This document shows positions 740 through 40,892 of a stretch of DNA of 40,892 nucleotides, piece after piece. The translations under genes and the position numbers were made by a program. Each line of letters starts with the position of its first letter. The first letter of the stretch is position 1. Below the pieces are notes generated by a model, which saw only the letters and a program-made list of their open reading frames with translations, made no database searches and was not told the origin of the DNA. The DNA is from a virus, in IMG/VR virus record IMGVR_UViG_3300036668_000311, positions 1-40,892 of that record. One strand, 5' to 3'.

Positions 740-796
740 AAATCGGTTGTCAGGCTTGAAATGACAAAAACATGACAAAAACATGACAACCGATTT
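740..796. promoter_or_regulatory. Inverted repeat and 11-bp-spaced TGACA repeats spanning the integrase start
   Basis: AAATCGGTTGTCA (740-752) and TGACAACCGATTT (784-796) form a perfect 13-bp inverted repeat around the ATG at 783. Between them ATGACA occurs at 761, 772 and 783, exactly 11 bp apart, so copies face the same side of the helix. Further TGACA copies occur at 598 and 619 on the other side of the core. This fits arm-type integrase binding sites and autoregulation of the integrase, or an mRNA hairpin hiding its start codon. Confidence 0.5.
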
Positions 797-1991
797 TATT
801 TCCTTCCAACTCAAAAAATACAACCTCAAAGCCGTTAACGATATGCACCCCTTCAAACTTTGTCGGATAGCAGATTCGGGTGGCGACATGAGCAAGGTCT
901 GGTACGTTGAATATTACGCATTCGACGACCTCAAAAAAGACGTCAAGCGAAAGAGAGTGGTTCTCGCTCAAGAAACCGCCGCCGCTCGGTATCGTGCCGG
1001 GAAAGAGATTGCAAAAGAAATTGACGGCTACCTGAAAGCAGGGGCAGTAACTAACCCGCAAAATAAGTACGAGGCTCCCGTTAACTCCGTCCAGACCAGC
1101 ACCCACATTTTGAAGTCGTGCACCTACTACCTCAAATTCCAAGAATCAATACTGAAGCCGAGAACGCACGAAACTTACTCAACCGACGTCAAACGCTTCA
1201 CGGAGTTCATTACCCGTAATTCGCTCGATAAATACAGCATTTCACAAATCACAGATTGCCACGCCAATCAGTTCCTCGACGAACTTATCATCAAGAAAAA
1301 GCTAACAAATAGGAGCAGGAACAACGCAAAAGGCACGATGTCAACCGTGTTCAACTTTTTCAAAAAACGGAAGATTATCACCGAAAACCCTTTTGATAAT
1401 ATCTCCAAGCTTAACTCCGTCGCCACGAAGCATTCAGCACTCACAGCAAAACAGGTCACTGAGTTCAAACGCATCTGCCTAACGATTAAGGAAAATCAAT
1501 TGTGGCTATTTCTCAACATGATTCACTATTGTTACATCCGCCCCCGCTCTGAGCTTAGATTGCTCAAAATAGTTGATATTAAAGAAAAAACAATTTTGAT
1601 ACGAGGCGAAAACGCAAAAGACAACGCCACTGAGCATGTCATTATTCCGTCATCGCTACAGGATCTTATCGAAGAAAACAAACTTAGAAGCTACCCCGAA
1701 AATCACTACGTGTTCGGGCAAAACGGAGAACCAGGACCCGAACCTTTAGGTCGCGACTGGATGTACAACAAACACCGCCGAATACTGAAGCTCTGCGAGT
1801 TTGAAAACAAAAAGATTGATATGTATAGCTGGAAGCATACAGGAGTTATCGCACTTTTTCAGGCAACGCAAAACATCGAACTAATCCGGCAGCAATGCCG
1901 CCATTCCGATATTTCGACAACCCAAAAGTACTTGCGTGACTTGGGGCTATTCATAGATTACGAACAAATCAACAAATTTCCGGCAATCTAA
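783..1991 (+). CDS. int: Phage tyrosine recombinase (integrase)
   Basis: 402 residues. An N-terminal arm-binding region (about 1-105) is followed by a SAM-like core-binding domain (about 108-205) and a catalytic domain (about 215-402). The first catalytic Arg lies in IRPRSE (Arg253 or Arg255), box II reads YSWKHTG (348-354), where Lys351 replaces the usual Arg as in many Bacteroidota phage integrases, then CRH (372-374) and the nucleophile Tyr383 in QKYLRDLG. It would join attP to a bacterial site. The ATG at 783 lies within a 13-bp inverted repeat and TGACA repeats. A strong terminator follows immediately. Confidence 0.93.
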   Translation: MTTDFISFQLKKYNLKAVNDMHPFKLCRIADSGGDMSKVWYVEYYAFDDLKKDVKRKRVVLAQETAAARYRAGKEIAKEIDGYLKAGAVTNPQNKYEAPVNSVQTSTHILKSCTYYLKFQESILKPRTHETYSTDVKRFTEFITRNSLDKYSISQITDCHANQFLDELIIKKKLTNRSRNNAKGTMSTVFNFFKKRKIITENPFDNISKLNSVATKHSALTAKQVTEFKRICLTIKENQLWLFLNMIHYCYIRPRSELRLLKIVDIKEKTILIRGENAKDNATEHVIIPSSLQDLIEENKLRSYPENHYVFGQNGEPGPEPLGRDWMYNKHRRILKLCEFENKKIDMYSWKHTGVIALFQATQNIELIRQQCRHSDISTTQKYLRDLGLFIDYEQINKFPAI

Positions 1992-3009: not shown

Positions 3010-3243
3010 CTAATCTGTGAAGTTCGCTTTTACACCATACATACAGGCAGTTTCAATTTTAGTTTGAGCAATAGAAATCAATCTTCCCTTTTCTCCACTT
3101 ACTTTTTCTGCTTGAGCTGCTACTGGTCGCATTGATTGTAGTAAGTCAATTAATTCAGCAGACTTGTTTTTAATTTGGTCTACTGTGTCATTCTTTGCAG
3201 GGTTGAAGTCTGCTTTCACTCTTTTTTGTCCTAATGTTGACAT
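3010..3243 (-). CDS. acb2: Acb2-like anti-CBASS cyclic-nucleotide sponge
   Basis: 77 residues with the ordered signature of the Acb2/Tad1 hairpin family (T4 Vs.4 and relatives): GQKRVKADFNP (5-15), V21DQIK then AELIDLL in helix 1, and in helix 2 the series RLISIAQT, E64 and MYGVKA (68-73), where T4-type proteins have AMWAVKA. Length matches the compact family. Acb2 proteins assemble into oligomers that bind cyclic di- and trinucleotides and so starve CBASS effectors; Tad1 relatives bind Thoeris signals. It is monocistronic, in the minus-strand accessory block. An (ATTT)5 tract sits immediately before the ATG. Which ligand it binds cannot be read from sequence. Confidence 0.85.
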   Translation of the reverse strand: MSTLGQKRVKADFNPAKNDTVDQIKNKSAELIDLLQSMRPVAAQAEKVSGEKGRLISIAQTKIETACMYGVKANFTD

Positions 3244-25884: not shown

Positions 25885-25939
25885 AGATAACAGCCGCTAT
25901 AACGCCATTCTGCGAACGCCGGATAGCTTGGTGTTAGGC
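25885..25939 (-). repeat. attC-like imperfect hairpin after the RNA ligase gene
   Basis: On the minus strand GCCTAAC (25939-25933, an RYYYAAC box) directly follows the ligase stop codon. It is followed by ACCAAGCTAT, a 20-base middle, and ATAGCGGCTGTTAT, whose arms pair with unpaired bases (GCTAT/ATAGC, AACA/TGTT). Size (about 55 bp), boxes and bulged stem resemble an integron attC site. The right-hand end lacks a clean GTTRRRY box. It closely resembles 40627-40685. Confidence 0.5.
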
Positions 25940-26974
25940 TTAATACTCGCTTTGTGCTTTAAAGAACATTTCTATAACCTTTTTAGATATGTATTTATTT
26001 ACATCTTTAGGCTCTAATCCGTTTTCTGCCATTGTATCCATTTCTTCAGATGCAACGTCTTTCACAAACCAACGAATTAAATCACCCATTTTTTTAACGT
26101 TTAAATCTTCTTTGTCAAATACGTTTTCAATCGCTTGGTTAAATCTATTTTCAGTTACAGAGTAGTTAATAAAATCTTGAATTGTTTTCAATTTCTCAAC
26201 ATCTACACTTGCAAGCTTCTTAACTTTAGTTACAGAGTGTTTATCTCCTTTTACTTTAAATCTATGTACACTATCTTTGTACTCCACACTCCAAACAACA
26301 CCTTCTCCTAATCCGTTATCAATTCCAAACGCTTTAGATATAGGGCATTCATTTTCTACTTTCTCGGTAATCTCTCCAAACTTGTTTTGTGCAAGTTGTG
26401 GCATATTAAAATCTACATCAATAGAATAAGTTTCATAGTCTTCTACATTAAATATTCTACATTCTGCATTCCTGACATTACTCGAATCAATCCAATAAGC
26501 GTTAAATTCTTCATCCTGTGGTTTAGATACTTTTACACCAAAAACATAAAAGGCTTTATCTAATTGAGATATTCCAACTCCTTTTTGTATTCCTTTACCT
26601 GCCCATTCTCCGTAAATAGAAACTGTATATACTTTAGTATCTATTTGGTTTTCGTTAATTAAATCATCTAATAAAGAGCATAATTGTATTTTATGGCTTT
26701 CTGCAAAAAATGCAAACCCAGCATTATCTTTTTCAATTGTAATAATATTTTGTCTCGATTGAACCCAAAAACCGTACTGGGAGTTAAAGCAAACACTTGC
26801 ATTAGTTCCGTGCAATTTAACAGTTCCTTTAAATGTTAAAGTAGGTTTTTTAATTGATGGGTCGTAAATCGCATTTCCATCTTCATCTAATCCAGTAAAT
26901 GTAATTTCTCTATTTATATTCGATACTACATTTCTAAACTGTTCAATCTTTGGGTAACTAATATGTTTCTTCAT
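25940..26974 (-). CDS. Rnl2-like RNA ligase
   Basis: 344 residues. The nucleotidyltransferase motifs are in order: motif I KLHGTN with the adenylated Lys53, a SIYGEWAGKGIQKGVGI segment (119-135), motif IV EGVV (224-227) and motif V RFKVKGDK with Lys240/Lys242. A helical C-terminal domain of about 90 residues follows, as in the Rnl2/RNA_ligase family that seals nicks in RNA duplexes or repairs cleaved tRNA. It could counter tRNA-cutting defences. The gene is bounded by GTTAGGC upstream and GCCTAAC right after its stop, as in an integron cassette, and its codon usage is noticeably more AT-rich than its neighbours. Confidence 0.88.
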   Translation of the reverse strand: MKKHISYPKIEQFRNVVSNINREITFTGLDEDGNAIYDPSIKKPTLTFKGTVKLHGTNASVCFNSQYGFWVQSRQNIITIEKDNAGFAFFAESHKIQLCSLLDDLINENQIDTKVYTVSIYGEWAGKGIQKGVGISQLDKAFYVFGVKVSKPQDEEFNAYWIDSSNVRNAECRIFNVEDYETYSIDVDFNMPQLAQNKFGEITEKVENECPISKAFGIDNGLGEGVVWSVEYKDSVHRFKVKGDKHSVTKVKKLASVDVEKLKTIQDFINYSVTENRFNQAIENVFDKEDLNVKKMGDLIRWFVKDVASEEMDTMAENGLEPKDVNKYISKKVIEMFFKAQSEY

Positions 26975-27023
26975 TTTGTTTGTTTTTCTAATTAATATTT
27001 ATAGTTTAATAATCCGTACATAA

Positions 27024-27079
27024 GCCTAACACGGTATAAAAGCCATTGAAAAAACGGCTCTTATACCCATTCGTTATTC
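27024..27079 (-). repeat. attC-like hairpin upstream of the RNA ligase gene
   Basis: On the plus strand GCCTAAC (27024-27030) is followed by GGTATAAAAGCC (27033-27044), an 11-base loop and GGCTCTTATACC (27056-27067), pairing at 11 of 12 positions, then CGTTATTC (27072-27079). Read on the minus strand, it runs from GAATAAC to GTTAGGC (a GTTRRRY box), the layout of an attC site ending where the ligase unit begins. Length is 56 bp. Confidence 0.6.
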
Positions 27080-29064: not shown

Positions 29065-29858
29065 TTCTCGATTTTAGCTAAAAAAGTGTAACCATTCTTT
29101 TTGAACTCTGAAATCCAAATAAGTTCTTTAGTCCATTCGCCGTCTTTCTTTTTTGGTTGCAACCTAAAATGCCCTCGCACGGTAAACTCGTTTGAGTTTA
29201 TTAAATTCGTAAACCATTTGCTGTCCAAGTATGTAACCTGCAAGTCTGTATCGTTAACATATTTGCAGTTTATGTCCTTAATCTTAGTTTTTGCGGGGAT
29301 AATTTTCGTTTCAACCTCTGCAAAACTTTTGAACATTTCTAAAATAACACATTCGTGCAATTTCCCGTAAATCCATTTTTGGACTTCATTGTTATCGCCT
29401 TTCACTTCTTCATAAAAACAGCTACTTAGCCAACCGTTCTGATAGATTTTTCTTTTTTCGCTGTCTACGTACATTGCAAGCGGGATGCCCGTTTTGTCAA
29501 ACATAAAAAAAGCCAACTCGTGATTATCGTTACCTTTTTGCACTTCGTAATCAAGCATCAAGACAAAATCGCCAACAACGTAAGTACCTTTTATATCAAA
29601 GTCTGAGGTATCATTTACAACTATGTCGGACCAAAGTTCACGCAACTTCTCTTGTGCCTTTTTACTAGCTTGGTAAAAAGAGGAACTTACTATGTTAATA
29701 TCTTTCTTAAAATTTTTATGGTAATGTTTCCACTCATGGGTAAAGAATTGACCAGCGAAGTAAAAATAAGATTTATCACCCTCGAAAATTGGCATGTTGC
29801 CTAGTGTGCCTTTATTCAACTTGTCTATGATTGGAATACTTCTGTTACTTACTCTCAT
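29061..29858 (-). CDS. Protein of unknown function (265 aa)
   Basis: 265 residues of mixed strand and helix: YFYFAGQFFTHEWKHYHKN near the start, an aromatic middle region, and KWFTNLINSNEFTVRGHFR near the end. No domain recognised. It overlaps the helicase by four bases and sits just after the primase-helicase, so it probably serves replication. Similar proteins in this position occur in Bacteroidota phages from memory, without known function. Confidence 0.6.
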   Translation of the reverse strand: MRVSNRSIPIIDKLNKGTLGNMPIFEGDKSYFYFAGQFFTHEWKHYHKNFKKDINIVSSSFYQASKKAQEKLRELWSDIVVNDTSDFDIKGTYVVGDFVLMLDYEVQKGNDNHELAFFMFDKTGIPLAMYVDSEKRKIYQNGWLSSCFYEEVKGDNNEVQKWIYGKLHECVILEMFKSFAEVETKIIPAKTKIKDINCKYVNDTDLQVTYLDSKWFTNLINSNEFTVRGHFRLQPKKKDGEWTKELIWISEFKKNGYTFLAKIEK

Positions 29859-29885
29859 AATTTCTCTGTTTGTTTGATTTTTTTT

Positions 29886-32231
29886 TTAAAATGGGACTTC
29901 GGTTTCTATATTTTTGATTGTAAAAAATCTACCTACGGAGTCTTTGCCCCTCTGGAGTTCGAGTTTGTGGAACCTCGCATACCCCTCTATCCAAAGCGAA
30001 AACTTCTTATTCGTTAACCACTTTTTTACGTCAGGGTATTCCTCCGAAAATCCTTCAAAACATACCTTATTGTACGTGCGTGCATTTTGAGTAAGTGGTT
30101 CGTCATTTGTCCACTCAAAAAACTCAAAAGATGTTTCCTTGATAAATTTTCGAGTATGTAGATTTTTGTAGTTAGTTTGGCTAAGTCCGTAGCTCAAAAA
30201 GTACTGCAAACATTGGATCATGAAATTGTCAAAATACAACCATTCATCGCTAGACCAATCGTCGAAAAGCATACAACCAAATTCGTCAATCGGCGAGTGG
30301 TGTGAACCAAAATAGCTACTTAGTTCAACCTCGAATTTTCGACGCTCAAACGAGCCGCCTACGCCCCCGATAGTATAGTTGGTAGTGATTAGTACTTTGG
30401 GTGATTTAGCAATGCCCAAGCGGGTTGCATCTTTGTTCTTTCGCTCAATTGTAATCCCCTCAGTAATGACCGAAAACAAACGTTCAAAATCGAAGTTCTT
30501 TTTTACATCGTCGTAGACTAAAACTTGCGTATCAATATCAACGGTCTGATAGGTAAATGACTTATCAAAGTCAAATTGCTTCCCGTCCAAAACCCCCACC
30601 TTTTTTACCTTTGTTAGCCCCTGAACAATTAAGCCCTTGCCGCTGCCGCCGTTTGGATTTTCACTAATTACCTCGTCGTTGAAAACAATAGCTTTGTTGT
30701 CAGCACTGGTCTTAAAAGAATGCATCAGATAACCTAATACTGATTTAATCGACTCGTAACGCTCTTTTTCTTTATTCGCTACTAAGAATATGAACTTTCG
30801 ATACATACCATTTTTGTAGTCTGCTAATTCAAAAGGGCGGTCAATTATTTGCTTCTCCCAAACGTAGCCGTCTAAGTCAATGTACTCGATTCGTTTGACG
30901 GTTTTCTTAGATATTTCGAGGACACAATTTTGATAGTACAGATAACAAAATTCCTGCGTGTCAGATTTTAGGTTCAAATCAACATTATCCAAGAAACTTA
31001 GGTAGTCACCTTTGAAGTATTTCGTTGCCCCCGCCATTAATTCGTAAGGCTGAAAACCGATATTATCGCGGGTGTGCAGGTCGTTCAAAACAAAGTCTTT
31101 AATCTGCTCTTCTTTGAGAATTGAAACTTTATTTTCGACAATTTTTACAAATACAAAAGATGTTTCATTGGGGTAATACTTGAATATCTGATTCGATTGC
31201 AAGTAAGCTTTGAATTTGTGATGCACAAGATGGTATCTTCCGTTCTTGTCGATACTCCAAAATTCATCAACACTGAGAGTATCTTTGATTTCTTCAATAG
31301 CATCGTCAATACCTTCGATGTTTTTATATTTGCGACTGATTTGGCGGGAGTTTTTGCCATTCACAATATCTTTTTGAATGCGTTCCCGAATGGTCTTGTT
31401 CTCGAATTGTTTCGTATTGTGGTCAGCTTCGCGAGAATAAGCAGATTTGACAATTGTATCCACTTCGCTTTGAGTAAACGTTCCACTCACGAACTGTGCA
31501 AAAAACTCATCGGCATCGGCCTTTGGAATACCAAATTCATTGAACGCAAATGCCAACTTAATAAGGTTGTCGTTTCGTTTTCCCGGAACAAAACCAAATT
31601 TACGCTCCCACCACTTACGCAGATTTTCGATAATCGCGTAATGAGAAGTTTCGGGAATAATTACTTCGATAGTACCTAAATCTTGCAATTCAGGCTCTGG
31701 AAGGTTATCAAACAACTTCGATTCGTAATTCACGTAAATGTCTGGGTCGCTGCTTTCAAAACAAACCCGTGAAACGTCTGAGGTACTGATGTCAAAATAA
31801 GGCGAATTGTAATAGTCTTTCAATCCGTCAAAAAAACGTTTGTGTGTGTTAGTATCAGCCGGGATGCGAACGATGCACTTGAAGCCATTACCGGAGGGTG
31901 AAGAAAATAATAACATCGTGTGTTGGTCTGCTTCAAGCGAATCGCGTACAGCTTTCAACTCTTCGTTATTAGGTATCTTATCGAAGTCCAGACAGATTAA
32001 TCCGCTGTGAACTTTCAACCCCGAAGCCGATCTATTTTTGAACGTTCCGCTAAAGCAAATAGACGGGAGCATCTTTTTTAGATTGTTTCGCTTCTCCTTA
32101 TCCTGCTCTTTTCTTATCTGCTCAATTGCAATATGACTGTGACCGCTCCGGATTCGCTCAACTGCCGTTGCCACATGACGGTCAAACCCCGCCGAAGTAG
32201 CCAATATATTTTTGAAAATGGTAATATTCAT
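29886..32231 (-). CDS. VirE_N primase fused to SF3-type helicase (781 aa)
   Basis: The N-terminal domain (about 1-180) matches VirE_N/BT4734, a primase-polymerase relative: SGLICLDFD with Asp82 and Asp84, and SPSGNGFK (111-118). A primase C-terminal-like helical region follows (200-290). The C-terminal half has the helicase core: Walker A GGSGKG (528-533), Walker B LVYDD (571-575) and sensor TTNY (616-619). It would prime and unwind DNA at the origin. The iteron-rich region at 32260-32525 lies directly upstream. Confidence 0.88.
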   Translation of the reverse strand: MNITIFKNILATSAGFDRHVATAVERIRSGHSHIAIEQIRKEQDKEKRNNLKKMLPSICFSGTFKNRSASGLKVHSGLICLDFDKIPNNEELKAVRDSLEADQHTMLLFSSPSGNGFKCIVRIPADTNTHKRFFDGLKDYYNSPYFDISTSDVSRVCFESSDPDIYVNYESKLFDNLPEPELQDLGTIEVIIPETSHYAIIENLRKWWERKFGFVPGKRNDNLIKLAFAFNEFGIPKADADEFFAQFVSGTFTQSEVDTIVKSAYSREADHNTKQFENKTIRERIQKDIVNGKNSRQISRKYKNIEGIDDAIEEIKDTLSVDEFWSIDKNGRYHLVHHKFKAYLQSNQIFKYYPNETSFVFVKIVENKVSILKEEQIKDFVLNDLHTRDNIGFQPYELMAGATKYFKGDYLSFLDNVDLNLKSDTQEFCYLYYQNCVLEISKKTVKRIEYIDLDGYVWEKQIIDRPFELADYKNGMYRKFIFLVANKEKERYESIKSVLGYLMHSFKTSADNKAIVFNDEVISENPNGGSGKGLIVQGLTKVKKVGVLDGKQFDFDKSFTYQTVDIDTQVLVYDDVKKNFDFERLFSVITEGITIERKNKDATRLGIAKSPKVLITTNYTIGGVGGSFERRKFEVELSSYFGSHHSPIDEFGCMLFDDWSSDEWLYFDNFMIQCLQYFLSYGLSQTNYKNLHTRKFIKETSFEFFEWTNDEPLTQNARTYNKVCFEGFSEEYPDVKKWLTNKKFSLWIEGYARFHKLELQRGKDSVGRFFTIKNIETEVPF

Positions 32232-33053: not shown

Positions 33054-33084
33054 GTTGTAAGCTGTTATTTAAAAATAATAAAAT

Positions 33085-33435
33085 ATGAAATACATAAATT
33101 TTAATGATGATAAACTTCCGATTGGTAAAAGAAAACAAGCCTACGTAAAATGGGCAACAAGTCAAGGGACAGATATTGTTTCAGCTAAAAGACAAGCCAA
33201 CAAAAAGTTTGGATTTGAAAAAAAATCAGGAATTTTTGCTATTGTAAAAGATGTGAGCGGTAGAAGAGAGCAAAGGTCGTTTACTGGAAGTCAGGAAATA
33301 TTTGCAGGCTATGATTTGCGTAAATATGAAAAGTCAAATTGGGCTGAAATTTGGGATGATGAGGAAATAACAAAAGTAAAAAAAGAGGCAAAAGAAAAAG
33401 GATGGGATGTTATAGAAGTGTCTTTGTATTCTTAA
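33085..33435 (+). CDS. Protein of unknown function (116 aa) in a cassette-like unit
   Basis: 116 residues, basic and helical in the N-terminal half (GKRKQAYVKWATSQGTDI, then SAKRQANKKFGF), acidic and helical at the end. No domain recognised. The unit is bounded by GTTGTAAGC at 33054-33062 and the exact complement GCTTACAAC at 33438-33446, two bases after the stop. It stands alone on the plus strand between early genes and tRNA region. Confidence 0.65.
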   Translation: MKYINFNDDKLPIGKRKQAYVKWATSQGTDIVSAKRQANKKFGFEKKSGIFAIVKDVSGRREQRSFTGSQEIFAGYDLRKYEKSNWAEIWDDEEITKVKKEAKEKGWDVIEVSLYS

Positions 33436-33437
33436 TT

Positions 33438-33526
33438 GCTTACAACAAAAGGCTACTCGATATTCTCGACCTTTCAGGTTTCGAGGATATTATCTCGAAC
33501 AGAATATACAACACGGTGCGTTACGC
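33438..33526 (+). repeat. attC-like structured tail of the 116-aa gene unit
   Basis: GCTTACAAC is followed by an imperfect hairpin, CTCGATATTCTCGACC with GGTTTCGAGGATAT (about 12 pairs, TT bulge, two G:T pairs), and ends near GCGTTACGC (33519-33527). Layout and bulged arms resemble an attC site, although the last box is not the complement of the first. Confidence 0.4.
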
Positions 33527-33846: not shown

Positions 33847-33889
33847 ATGCGTAATATTGTAAGCGAGACAGCAACGTTGCTGTTTGGTA

Positions 33890-33952
33890 TTCGGGGTAGC
33901 TCAGTTGGTGAGAGCCTGTTGTTTGTCGCTGGTTCGAGTCCAGCACCCGAAG
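33890..33952 (+). tRNA. tRNA-like gene lacking an anticodon arm (degenerate or unusual)
   Basis: Acceptor arms TTCGGGG and ACCCGAA pair at six of seven positions. A D arm (GCTC-AGTTGGTGA-GAGC) and a canonical T arm (GCTGG-TTCGAGT-CCAGC) are complete. Only 12 bases lie between the D and T arms, where about 23 are needed for anticodon arm and variable loop. So the anticodon arm is deleted and no anticodon can be assigned. Confidence 0.6.
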
Positions 33953-34278: not shown

Positions 34279-34351
<73 letters not shown>

Positions 34352-34356
34352 CTCTG

Positions 34357-40626: not shown

Positions 40627-40685
40627 AACAGCCGTTATAAAGCAATTCTCCTAACGTCGAACAGCGTATAGCTTGGTGTTGTAAG
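40627..40685 (-). repeat. attC-like hairpin after the second copy of the 68-aa gene
   Basis: On the minus strand CTTACAAC is followed by ACCAAGCTATA, a middle of about 26 bases, and TTATAACGGCTGTT. Its two arms closely match the site at 25885-25939: both contain ACACCAAGCTAT and CGGCTGTTAT. At the first copy of the repeat (2172) this hairpin is missing and the gene remnant abuts instead. Confidence 0.5.
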
Positions 40686-40892
40686 AAATACTACAAAAAC
40701 TGTTCGTGTTTTGAGCGTATAATAGAACGCTTCATAATTTTGCAGTTCTCATCTTCGTAATCGTTTAAATCCAAATCCCTGTTTTGATACATTGTATGTT
40801 TTGATATTTGAATCATTTCAGATTCATTGTCAAAAAGCATTTTTAGCGAACCGTATAAAACTACACGGTTCGCTTTTTTGTCGATGAATATT
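40677..40892. repeat. 216-bp direct repeat, copy 2 (cut by the window end)
   Basis: It matches 2172-2387 with two substitutions. The window ends inside it. Short-read assemblies often break at such repeats, so the contig end may be technical. The similarity starts at TGTTGTAAG in both copies. Confidence 0.97.
40691..40892 (-). CDS. Second copy of the 68-aa protein gene (5' end outside window)
   Basis: The frame is open from the window end to TAG at 40691-40693. By alignment with 2186-2392, its ATG lies five bases beyond the window. The last residue changes from Phe to Leu; the other difference is in the middle of the gene. An upstream 108-aa partner gene is likely to follow beyond the end. 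Confidence 0.65.
   Translation of the reverse strand, partial: IFIDKKANRVVLYGSLKMLFDNESEMIQISKHTMYQNRDLDLNDYEDENCKIMKRSIIRSKHEQFL

Follow-up and report, generated by a model that had tools for sequence, protein, structure and literature searches.

Gene cassettes have already been described from phages by Qi et al. 2023, who reported integrons and 17 CALINs in phages, including Polaribacter phage P12002L with its methyltransferases, and who showed that the bottom strand of P12002L attC2 recombines with attI1 under IntI1 (PMC9892861). One P12002L unit (GTTAGGCAC..GTGCCTAAC, 29237-30011) holds an antisense methyltransferase, and because its box-gene-box anatomy is that of the ligase phage described here, phage cassettes are already known in kind. 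Among cellular integrons, those of Spirochaetota carry the integrase in reverse orientation (PMC9668308). Bacteroidetes are reported to have hardly any integrons, the IntegronFinder 2.0 survey listing one complete example there, in Salinibacter ruber (PMC9024848), and Smyshlyaev et al. describe the IntI-specific insertion as essential to integron function although incompletely conserved (PMC8138268). Like the phage CALINs and P12002L, the phages analysed here combine boxed cassettes and attC-type ends with the lack of an integrase, a Bacteroidota phage background and methyltransferase cargo; they differ in exchanging cassettes at exact points among siblings, in carrying an RNA ligase, in a hairpin family that is almost exclusively viral, and in having as candidate enzyme a host recombinase that is not IntI. 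With canonical integrons (IntI1, Vibrio IntIA/IntI4) the system shares an array at attI, attC ends, complementary boxes, the G|TT crossover and the bottom-strand fold, whereas its boxes are GTTR, its recombinase has no IntI insertion and turns its 3' end toward the array, and its phage genes are antisense. The reversed orientation in Bacteroidia recalls the Spirochaete integrons, from which, by their description, the system differs in phylum and in a recombinase without the IntI insertion.

The window, i.e., the whole stretch of DNA analysed (40,892 nucleotides), is one IMG/VR phage contig, and its genes include those for terminase, portal, head and replication functions. Its RNA ligase gene is a mobile gene cassette that fills exactly the interval between two G|TT points, and is made up as follows:
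25889 to 25935, plus strand: resident attC/attI-like site 1, AACAGCC...ATAGCTTGGTG|TT, constant in relatives; it reads AACAGCCGCTATAACGCC..GGATAGCTTGGTG from 25889, then |TTAGGCTTA
25933 to 25942, plus strand: R'-type box GTTAGGCTTA, whose G is part of the resident site
25934 to 27073, plus strand: the complete cassette of 1,140 bp, crossover G|TT to crossover G|TT, with its gene antisense
25940 to 26974, minus strand: the cassette gene, an RNA ligase of 344 aa (PF09414; phrog_548, 1.6e-61)
27021 to 27030, plus strand: R''-type box TAAGCCTAAC, complementary to the R' box at every position
27031 to 27073, plus strand: the short attC-like hairpin of 43 nt that closes the cassette, ACGGTATAAAAGCC..GGCTCTTATACCCATTCG and then |TTATTCATCGC; its minus strand reads AGAGCCGTTTTTTCAATGGCTT

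A sequence-only reading of this DNA had proposed that the ligase is packaged like an integron cassette, with a unit that begins on the minus strand at GTTAGGC and a stop codon followed at once by GCCTAAC. On the minus strand GTTAGGC indeed lies at the 5' end and the ligase stop TAA (25942-25940) runs directly into GCCTAAC (25939-25933), and the complementarity is longer than had been noticed: GTTAGGCTTA and TAAGCCTAAC match over 10 nt anchored on GTT, or 12 nt when the adjoining GT/AC is counted. A 10-nt match was reached in 0.05% of same-geometry random placements and a 12-nt match in 0 of 20,000, and box complementarity at the remaining annotated ORFs of the window never exceeded 9 nt. The strand on which the unit is read had to be corrected. 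On the window plus strand the order is G|TT-AGGCTTA, antisense ligase, TAAGCCTAAC, 43-nt hairpin and |TT, and since what moves together, read on this strand, is TT-box, gene, box-AAC, hairpin and G, the gene is antisense to its cassette. The ligase unit has the composition of a cassette, a single gene between complementary R'/R'' boxes with an attC-like end. Hairpins had been claimed for both flanks; the right one (27031-27073) is well borne out, its minus strand giving a folding z of -3.7 and beating 200 of 200 shuffles, while the left one, i.e., resident site 1, folds weakly (z -2.2 for the minus strand, -0.6 for the plus). In its circular form, reconstituted as 62 nt, the ligase site reaches a z of -6.6. 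An Rfam search of the window returned tRNA only, and the attC-like sites match no Rfam family. The AT-rich codon use ascribed to the ligase was likewise recovered, with a GC3 of 0.21 vs 0.38-0.54 in the other long genes of the window.

That the ligase is a cassette follows from near-identical phages, which hold methyltransferases and small ORFs at the same two base positions. Five related contigs carry the neighbouring helicase at 96-100% identity, and homology to L036-L039 and the circular relative G004 breaks exactly at 25933|25934 and 27073|27074. Window homology to L036-L039 ends at 25935 with the common TT counted and restarts at 27006-27026 (similar cassette leaders plus the hairpin), and the aligned junctions put the changeover at G|TT. 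Site 1 is occupied in L037 and L039 by an N6/N4 methyltransferase (GTTAGCAGTA..TACTGCTAAC) together with a small-ORF unit (GTTGTATG..CATACAAC), in L038 by a second methyltransferase (GTTAGGCAC..GTGCCTAAC), and in L036 by a boxed gene (GTTAGCATTA..TAATGCTAAC), methyltransferase-like by eye, beside the GTTAGGCAC..GTGCCTAAC methyltransferase unit; every replacement gene comes with its own complementary boxes of 8-10 nt. The unit by which L036 and L038 differ consists, in plus orientation, of precisely TT box, gene, box AAC, hairpin and G, which identifies the right hairpin as part of the cassette and the left ..TTGGTG|TT as the constant site. The L036 and L037 arrays have at least two attC-like sites close together and no integrase, as phage CALINs do, and the window holds one full cassette at site 1.

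Further cassette features lie elsewhere in the window:
2174 to 2920 (right end approximate), minus strand: DUF cassette with ORFs 2186-2392 and 2392-2769, boxes GTTGTAAGAA (2173-2182) and TTCTTACAAC (2851-2860), and a hairpin after the boxes
33054 to 33446, plus strand: third cassette-like unit, ORF 33085-33435, boxes GTTGTAAGC and GCTTACAAC
40627 to 40680, plus strand: second resident site, AACAGCC...ATAGCTTGGTG|TT, with an ending ATAGCTTGGTGTT (40668-40680) identical to that of site 1
40679 to 40892, minus strand: start of a DUF cassette at site 2, cut by the contig end, a 216-nt repeat of 2172-2387

At site 2 (swap point 40678) the window has the DUF cassette and G004 a Dam-like methyltransferase (by eye), so that comparative junctions at two sites place insertion or loss at G|TT. 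The DUF cassette is whole at site 2 in contig L234, with an intact junction, and in L235 the end of the DUF gene is followed, exactly after AAC, by a different hairpin; a plasmid search with the DUF region gave no match. The contig terminus (40677-40892) is a second, slightly different copy of this cassette, and positions 1-2171, which include a tyrosine integrase and a tRNA 3'-end-like sequence near 663-700 (by eye), meet the DUF cassette exactly at G|TT; the arrangement of 1-2387 and 40677-40892 reflects either integration at the cassette point or an assembly chimera. Beside the DUF cassette, on the minus strand at 3010-3243, a small ORF has an Acb2/Tad1 hairpin domain (PF24729, 8e-13), and its product is a candidate anti-CBASS/anti-Thoeris sponge. 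Homologues of the third-unit gene (87% nucleotide identity) have different yet self-complementary boxes in L237 and L238, and no boxes in L240 and L241. A degenerate tRNA-like sequence (33886-33950, by eye) lies ~0.3 kb before the intact tRNA-Met at 34279-34352.

The hairpin belongs to a family that was looked for and recovered with different genes in other phages: the string AGAGCCGTTTTTTCNATGGCTT is present in 37 viral contigs, with differing left flanks and differing cargo, among it methyltransferases of the N6/N4 and C5 kinds and a T5orf172/MUG113 protein. To the right of the viral hairpins GTT and a private box follow, and in many cases the ATG is preceded by a leader, GTACGGATTAATTAAC; this leader between box and start codon is kept in unrelated cassette genes (L045, L046, L051, L066, L068, L074 and L076) and may serve as a promoter of the cassette or in translation. 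In all 24 viral units in which a second box was found, the gene is on the bottom strand (the hairpin's AGAGCC strand). Across the genomes of 84,980 bacterial and archaeal species (257 Gb), a loosened hairpin pattern matched only six times, once in an AAC/GTT setting; the other five have no AAC/GTT edges and look like chance. Homologues of the ligase itself (at most 84%, one partial at 90%) sit without such boxes in unrelated, often larger phage contigs, which implies that the window ligase became a cassette gene, by packaging or capture, later than those lineages or independently of them. Homologous phages that keep the flanks and lack the boxes, which would have spoken against a cassette, were not encountered.

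The bottom strand folds better at 23 of 24 phage sites and at 15 of 18 chromosomal sites (described below), as in integrons. A rule by which wobble pairs decide the strand fits the phage sites, with 47 vs 0 G.T pairs, but at chromosomal sites these number 33 vs 33, and the rule was given up as a general explanation. The R box is GTTR in 59/59 units and GTTRRRY in 4/59, the ligase unit being one that fits GTTRRRY.

The phage does not seem to encode an enzyme for cassette recombination. The one candidate in the window is:
783 to 1991, plus strand: a phage-type tyrosine integrase, not IntI, missing from the circular relative G004

With the TIGR02249 profile this integrase scores 41 bits vs a cut-off of 265, and the window contains no canonical integron integrase, just as the sequence-only reading had stated. 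Phage-encoded recombinases were also rejected more widely: of the records that bear the hairpin, only 4 of 39 contain PF00589 and 2 of 40 contain PF00239, a bacterial genome being one of these two, and several records of 64-74 kb have neither. In G004 a serine resolvase gene (25901-26167, L128) is truncated directly at the cassette end (TTGTAAGAAATACTACAAAAAC).

A chromosomal counterpart was found in a MAG labelled Chitinophaga pinensis, where a phage-type hairpin closes the first of seven successive units, mostly 117-118 nt apart, and where, ~100 bp beyond the hairpin unit, the gene for a 370-aa tyrosine recombinase ends. The 62-aa gene of this phage-type cassette has no copy in the viral contigs searched. 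At 1e-40, 152 of 295 Bacteroidia genomes have a homologue of the recombinase, and at E<=1e-100 46 of 295 do; at the 3' ends of the latter lie arrays in which a conserved attI-like site is followed by cassettes set apart by attC-like hairpins of ~118 nt. An attI-like site beside the recombinase and tandem cassettes are thus both in place, as in a canonical platform. Downstream of twenty homologues, 24 pairs of consecutive units are spaced 116-119 nt apart (none in the reversed strings, 0.1 in shuffles); the ~124-nt sites (AACAGC...GCAAACCGTT) fold into long arms, and 22 of the 24 cassette genes called are sense to the site. The attI-like motif (R)TATAAnnnnAGTTR is present at 18 of 30 loci, 74-162 nt (mostly 74-101) past the stop codon, vs 4.6% of random windows; 12 of the 30 loci are without the motif as written. 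At the Chryseobacterium recombinase WP_143853951 the attI reads ..GACATATAAACAAG|TT. Contigs end within 1 kb on the recombinase 3' side in 24 of 73 cases vs 4 of 77 (Fisher 1.4e-5), and five contigs from different genomes terminate exactly at AGTT or AGTTA, the insertion point, which we would ascribe to assembler behaviour where different cassettes follow one attI.

The 370-aa recombinase has Pfam domains Phage_integrase and SAM_4. Its best NCBIfam model is NF040815 (XerA-like; 208 bits vs a cut-off of 220), and TIGR02249 (IntI) matches it in two stretches with 194 bits (cut-off 265). The alignment to 2a3v, the structure of Vibrio IntI4, falls into two blocks, with 22 residues opposite 64 of IntI4, and the best PDB match, XerA 5hxy, aligns throughout without a large internal gap. 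It departs from XerA/NF040815 in an extra N-terminal ~90 aa, a C-terminal SPFD as in IntI and the array at its 3' end. Aligned with IntI1 and with an IntI from Bacteroidia, it lacks the IntI-specific insertion and shares the C-terminal SP(F/L)D. In an unrooted tree with only two IntI, rough bootstrap and some long branches, the recombinase family makes up a single clade that falls with IntI, separate from Bacteroidia XerC/D (97/90). As far as its sequence can tell, the recombinase is a sister of IntI without the IntI-specific insertion. Canonical integrases are transcribed away from the array; here the recombinase 3' end faces it. Chryseobacterium plasmids of named isolates carry the recombinase, one annotated as 'site-specific tyrosine recombinase/integron integrase', and ~50 Acinetobacter plasmids have recombinases that share 46% identity with the Bacteroidia family, among them one annotated TnpF. 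Given the missing insertion, the scores below the IntI cut-off and boxes that are GTTR and rarely GTTRRRY, the system appears to function like an integron, though not a canonical one.

The sequence-only reading had offered either a host IntI or an unknown attC-like recombination as the source of insertion, and the comparison narrows this choice. Were a canonical host IntI at work, with the Bacteroidia recombinase family merely a neighbour, the ability of IntI1 to recombine a Polaribacter phage attC in E. coli (PMC9892861) and the box-gene-box anatomy that P12002L shares with the ligase phage would both be accounted for. We nevertheless regard a canonical IntI as improbable, as IntI above cut-off was found in just 1 of 395 Bacteroidia genomes, R boxes are seldom GTTRRRY, and the arrays sit at the 3' end of the non-IntI recombinase, whose homologues are common.

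It is more doubtful still that the hairpins are ordinary terminators or repeats between which homologous recombination swaps genes. Private complementary boxes in every unit argue against it, as does the exact stop at G|TT, at two sites, of the flank homology shared by phages with different cassettes, and swaps at the constant site have just TG|TT as common bases; in its favour, L037 combines an L038-like left arm with an L039-like right arm, so that recombination may take place inside hairpins. Folded hairpins and inverted end boxes occur in several transposition systems, and IS200/IS605 or IS110-like elements, a MITE, Xer-dif or a serine recombinase could be imagined to move the units, the more so since a serine-resolvase fragment adjoins site 2 in G004. 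This we judge the least probable explanation: the boxes are unit-specific and hence not a fixed terminal repeat, and resolvase and tyrosine integrase occur in only 2/40 and 4/39 of the records searched, respectively.

The RNA ligase is thus probably an integron-type mobile cassette recombined by a host-supplied IntI-sister recombinase. We infer that the cassette would be transiently circular, its two boxes pairing around the hairpin; that a tyrosine recombinase would bind the folded bottom (window minus) strand; and that it would join the cassette at G|TT to a resident attC/attI-like phage site. The enzyme most likely comes from the Bacteroidia host, as the IntI-sister recombinase whose gene ends ~100 bp from an attI-like site, and phages would draw on the host cassette pool, often for DNA methyltransferases and here for an RNA ligase; an anti-defence use of phage cassettes is a guess. 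The link between recombinase and phages consists of one chromosomal copy of the phage hairpin plus the common anatomy, across contrasts in size (43 nt for the phage hairpin, ~118 nt for most chromosomal sites) and orientation (phage genes antisense to the site, chromosomal genes mostly sense). On balance we favour the broader reading that Bacteroidia have a second integron lineage, with an IntI-sister recombinase reversed at attI, ~118-nt attC and cassette-specific boxes of 9-10 nt, in which phages run a short-hairpin, antisense branch and exchange cassettes with host arrays.

Our literature search, with preprints and most subscription papers outside its scope, returned no paper on a Bacteroidia-wide array beside an insertion-less recombinase, and the novelty of the system is accordingly provisional. 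The results point to a gene-capture system common to phages and their Bacteroidia hosts that has gone largely unnoticed. If a second lineage exists, standard integron finders would largely miss it, and a common integron-like platform in Bacteroidetes would alter the picture of where genes are captured as cassettes. The insertion-less enzyme would then be a natural test of the role of the IntI insertion, and exact-point cassette swaps would account for the gain and loss of methyltransferases and an RNA ligase by small phages.
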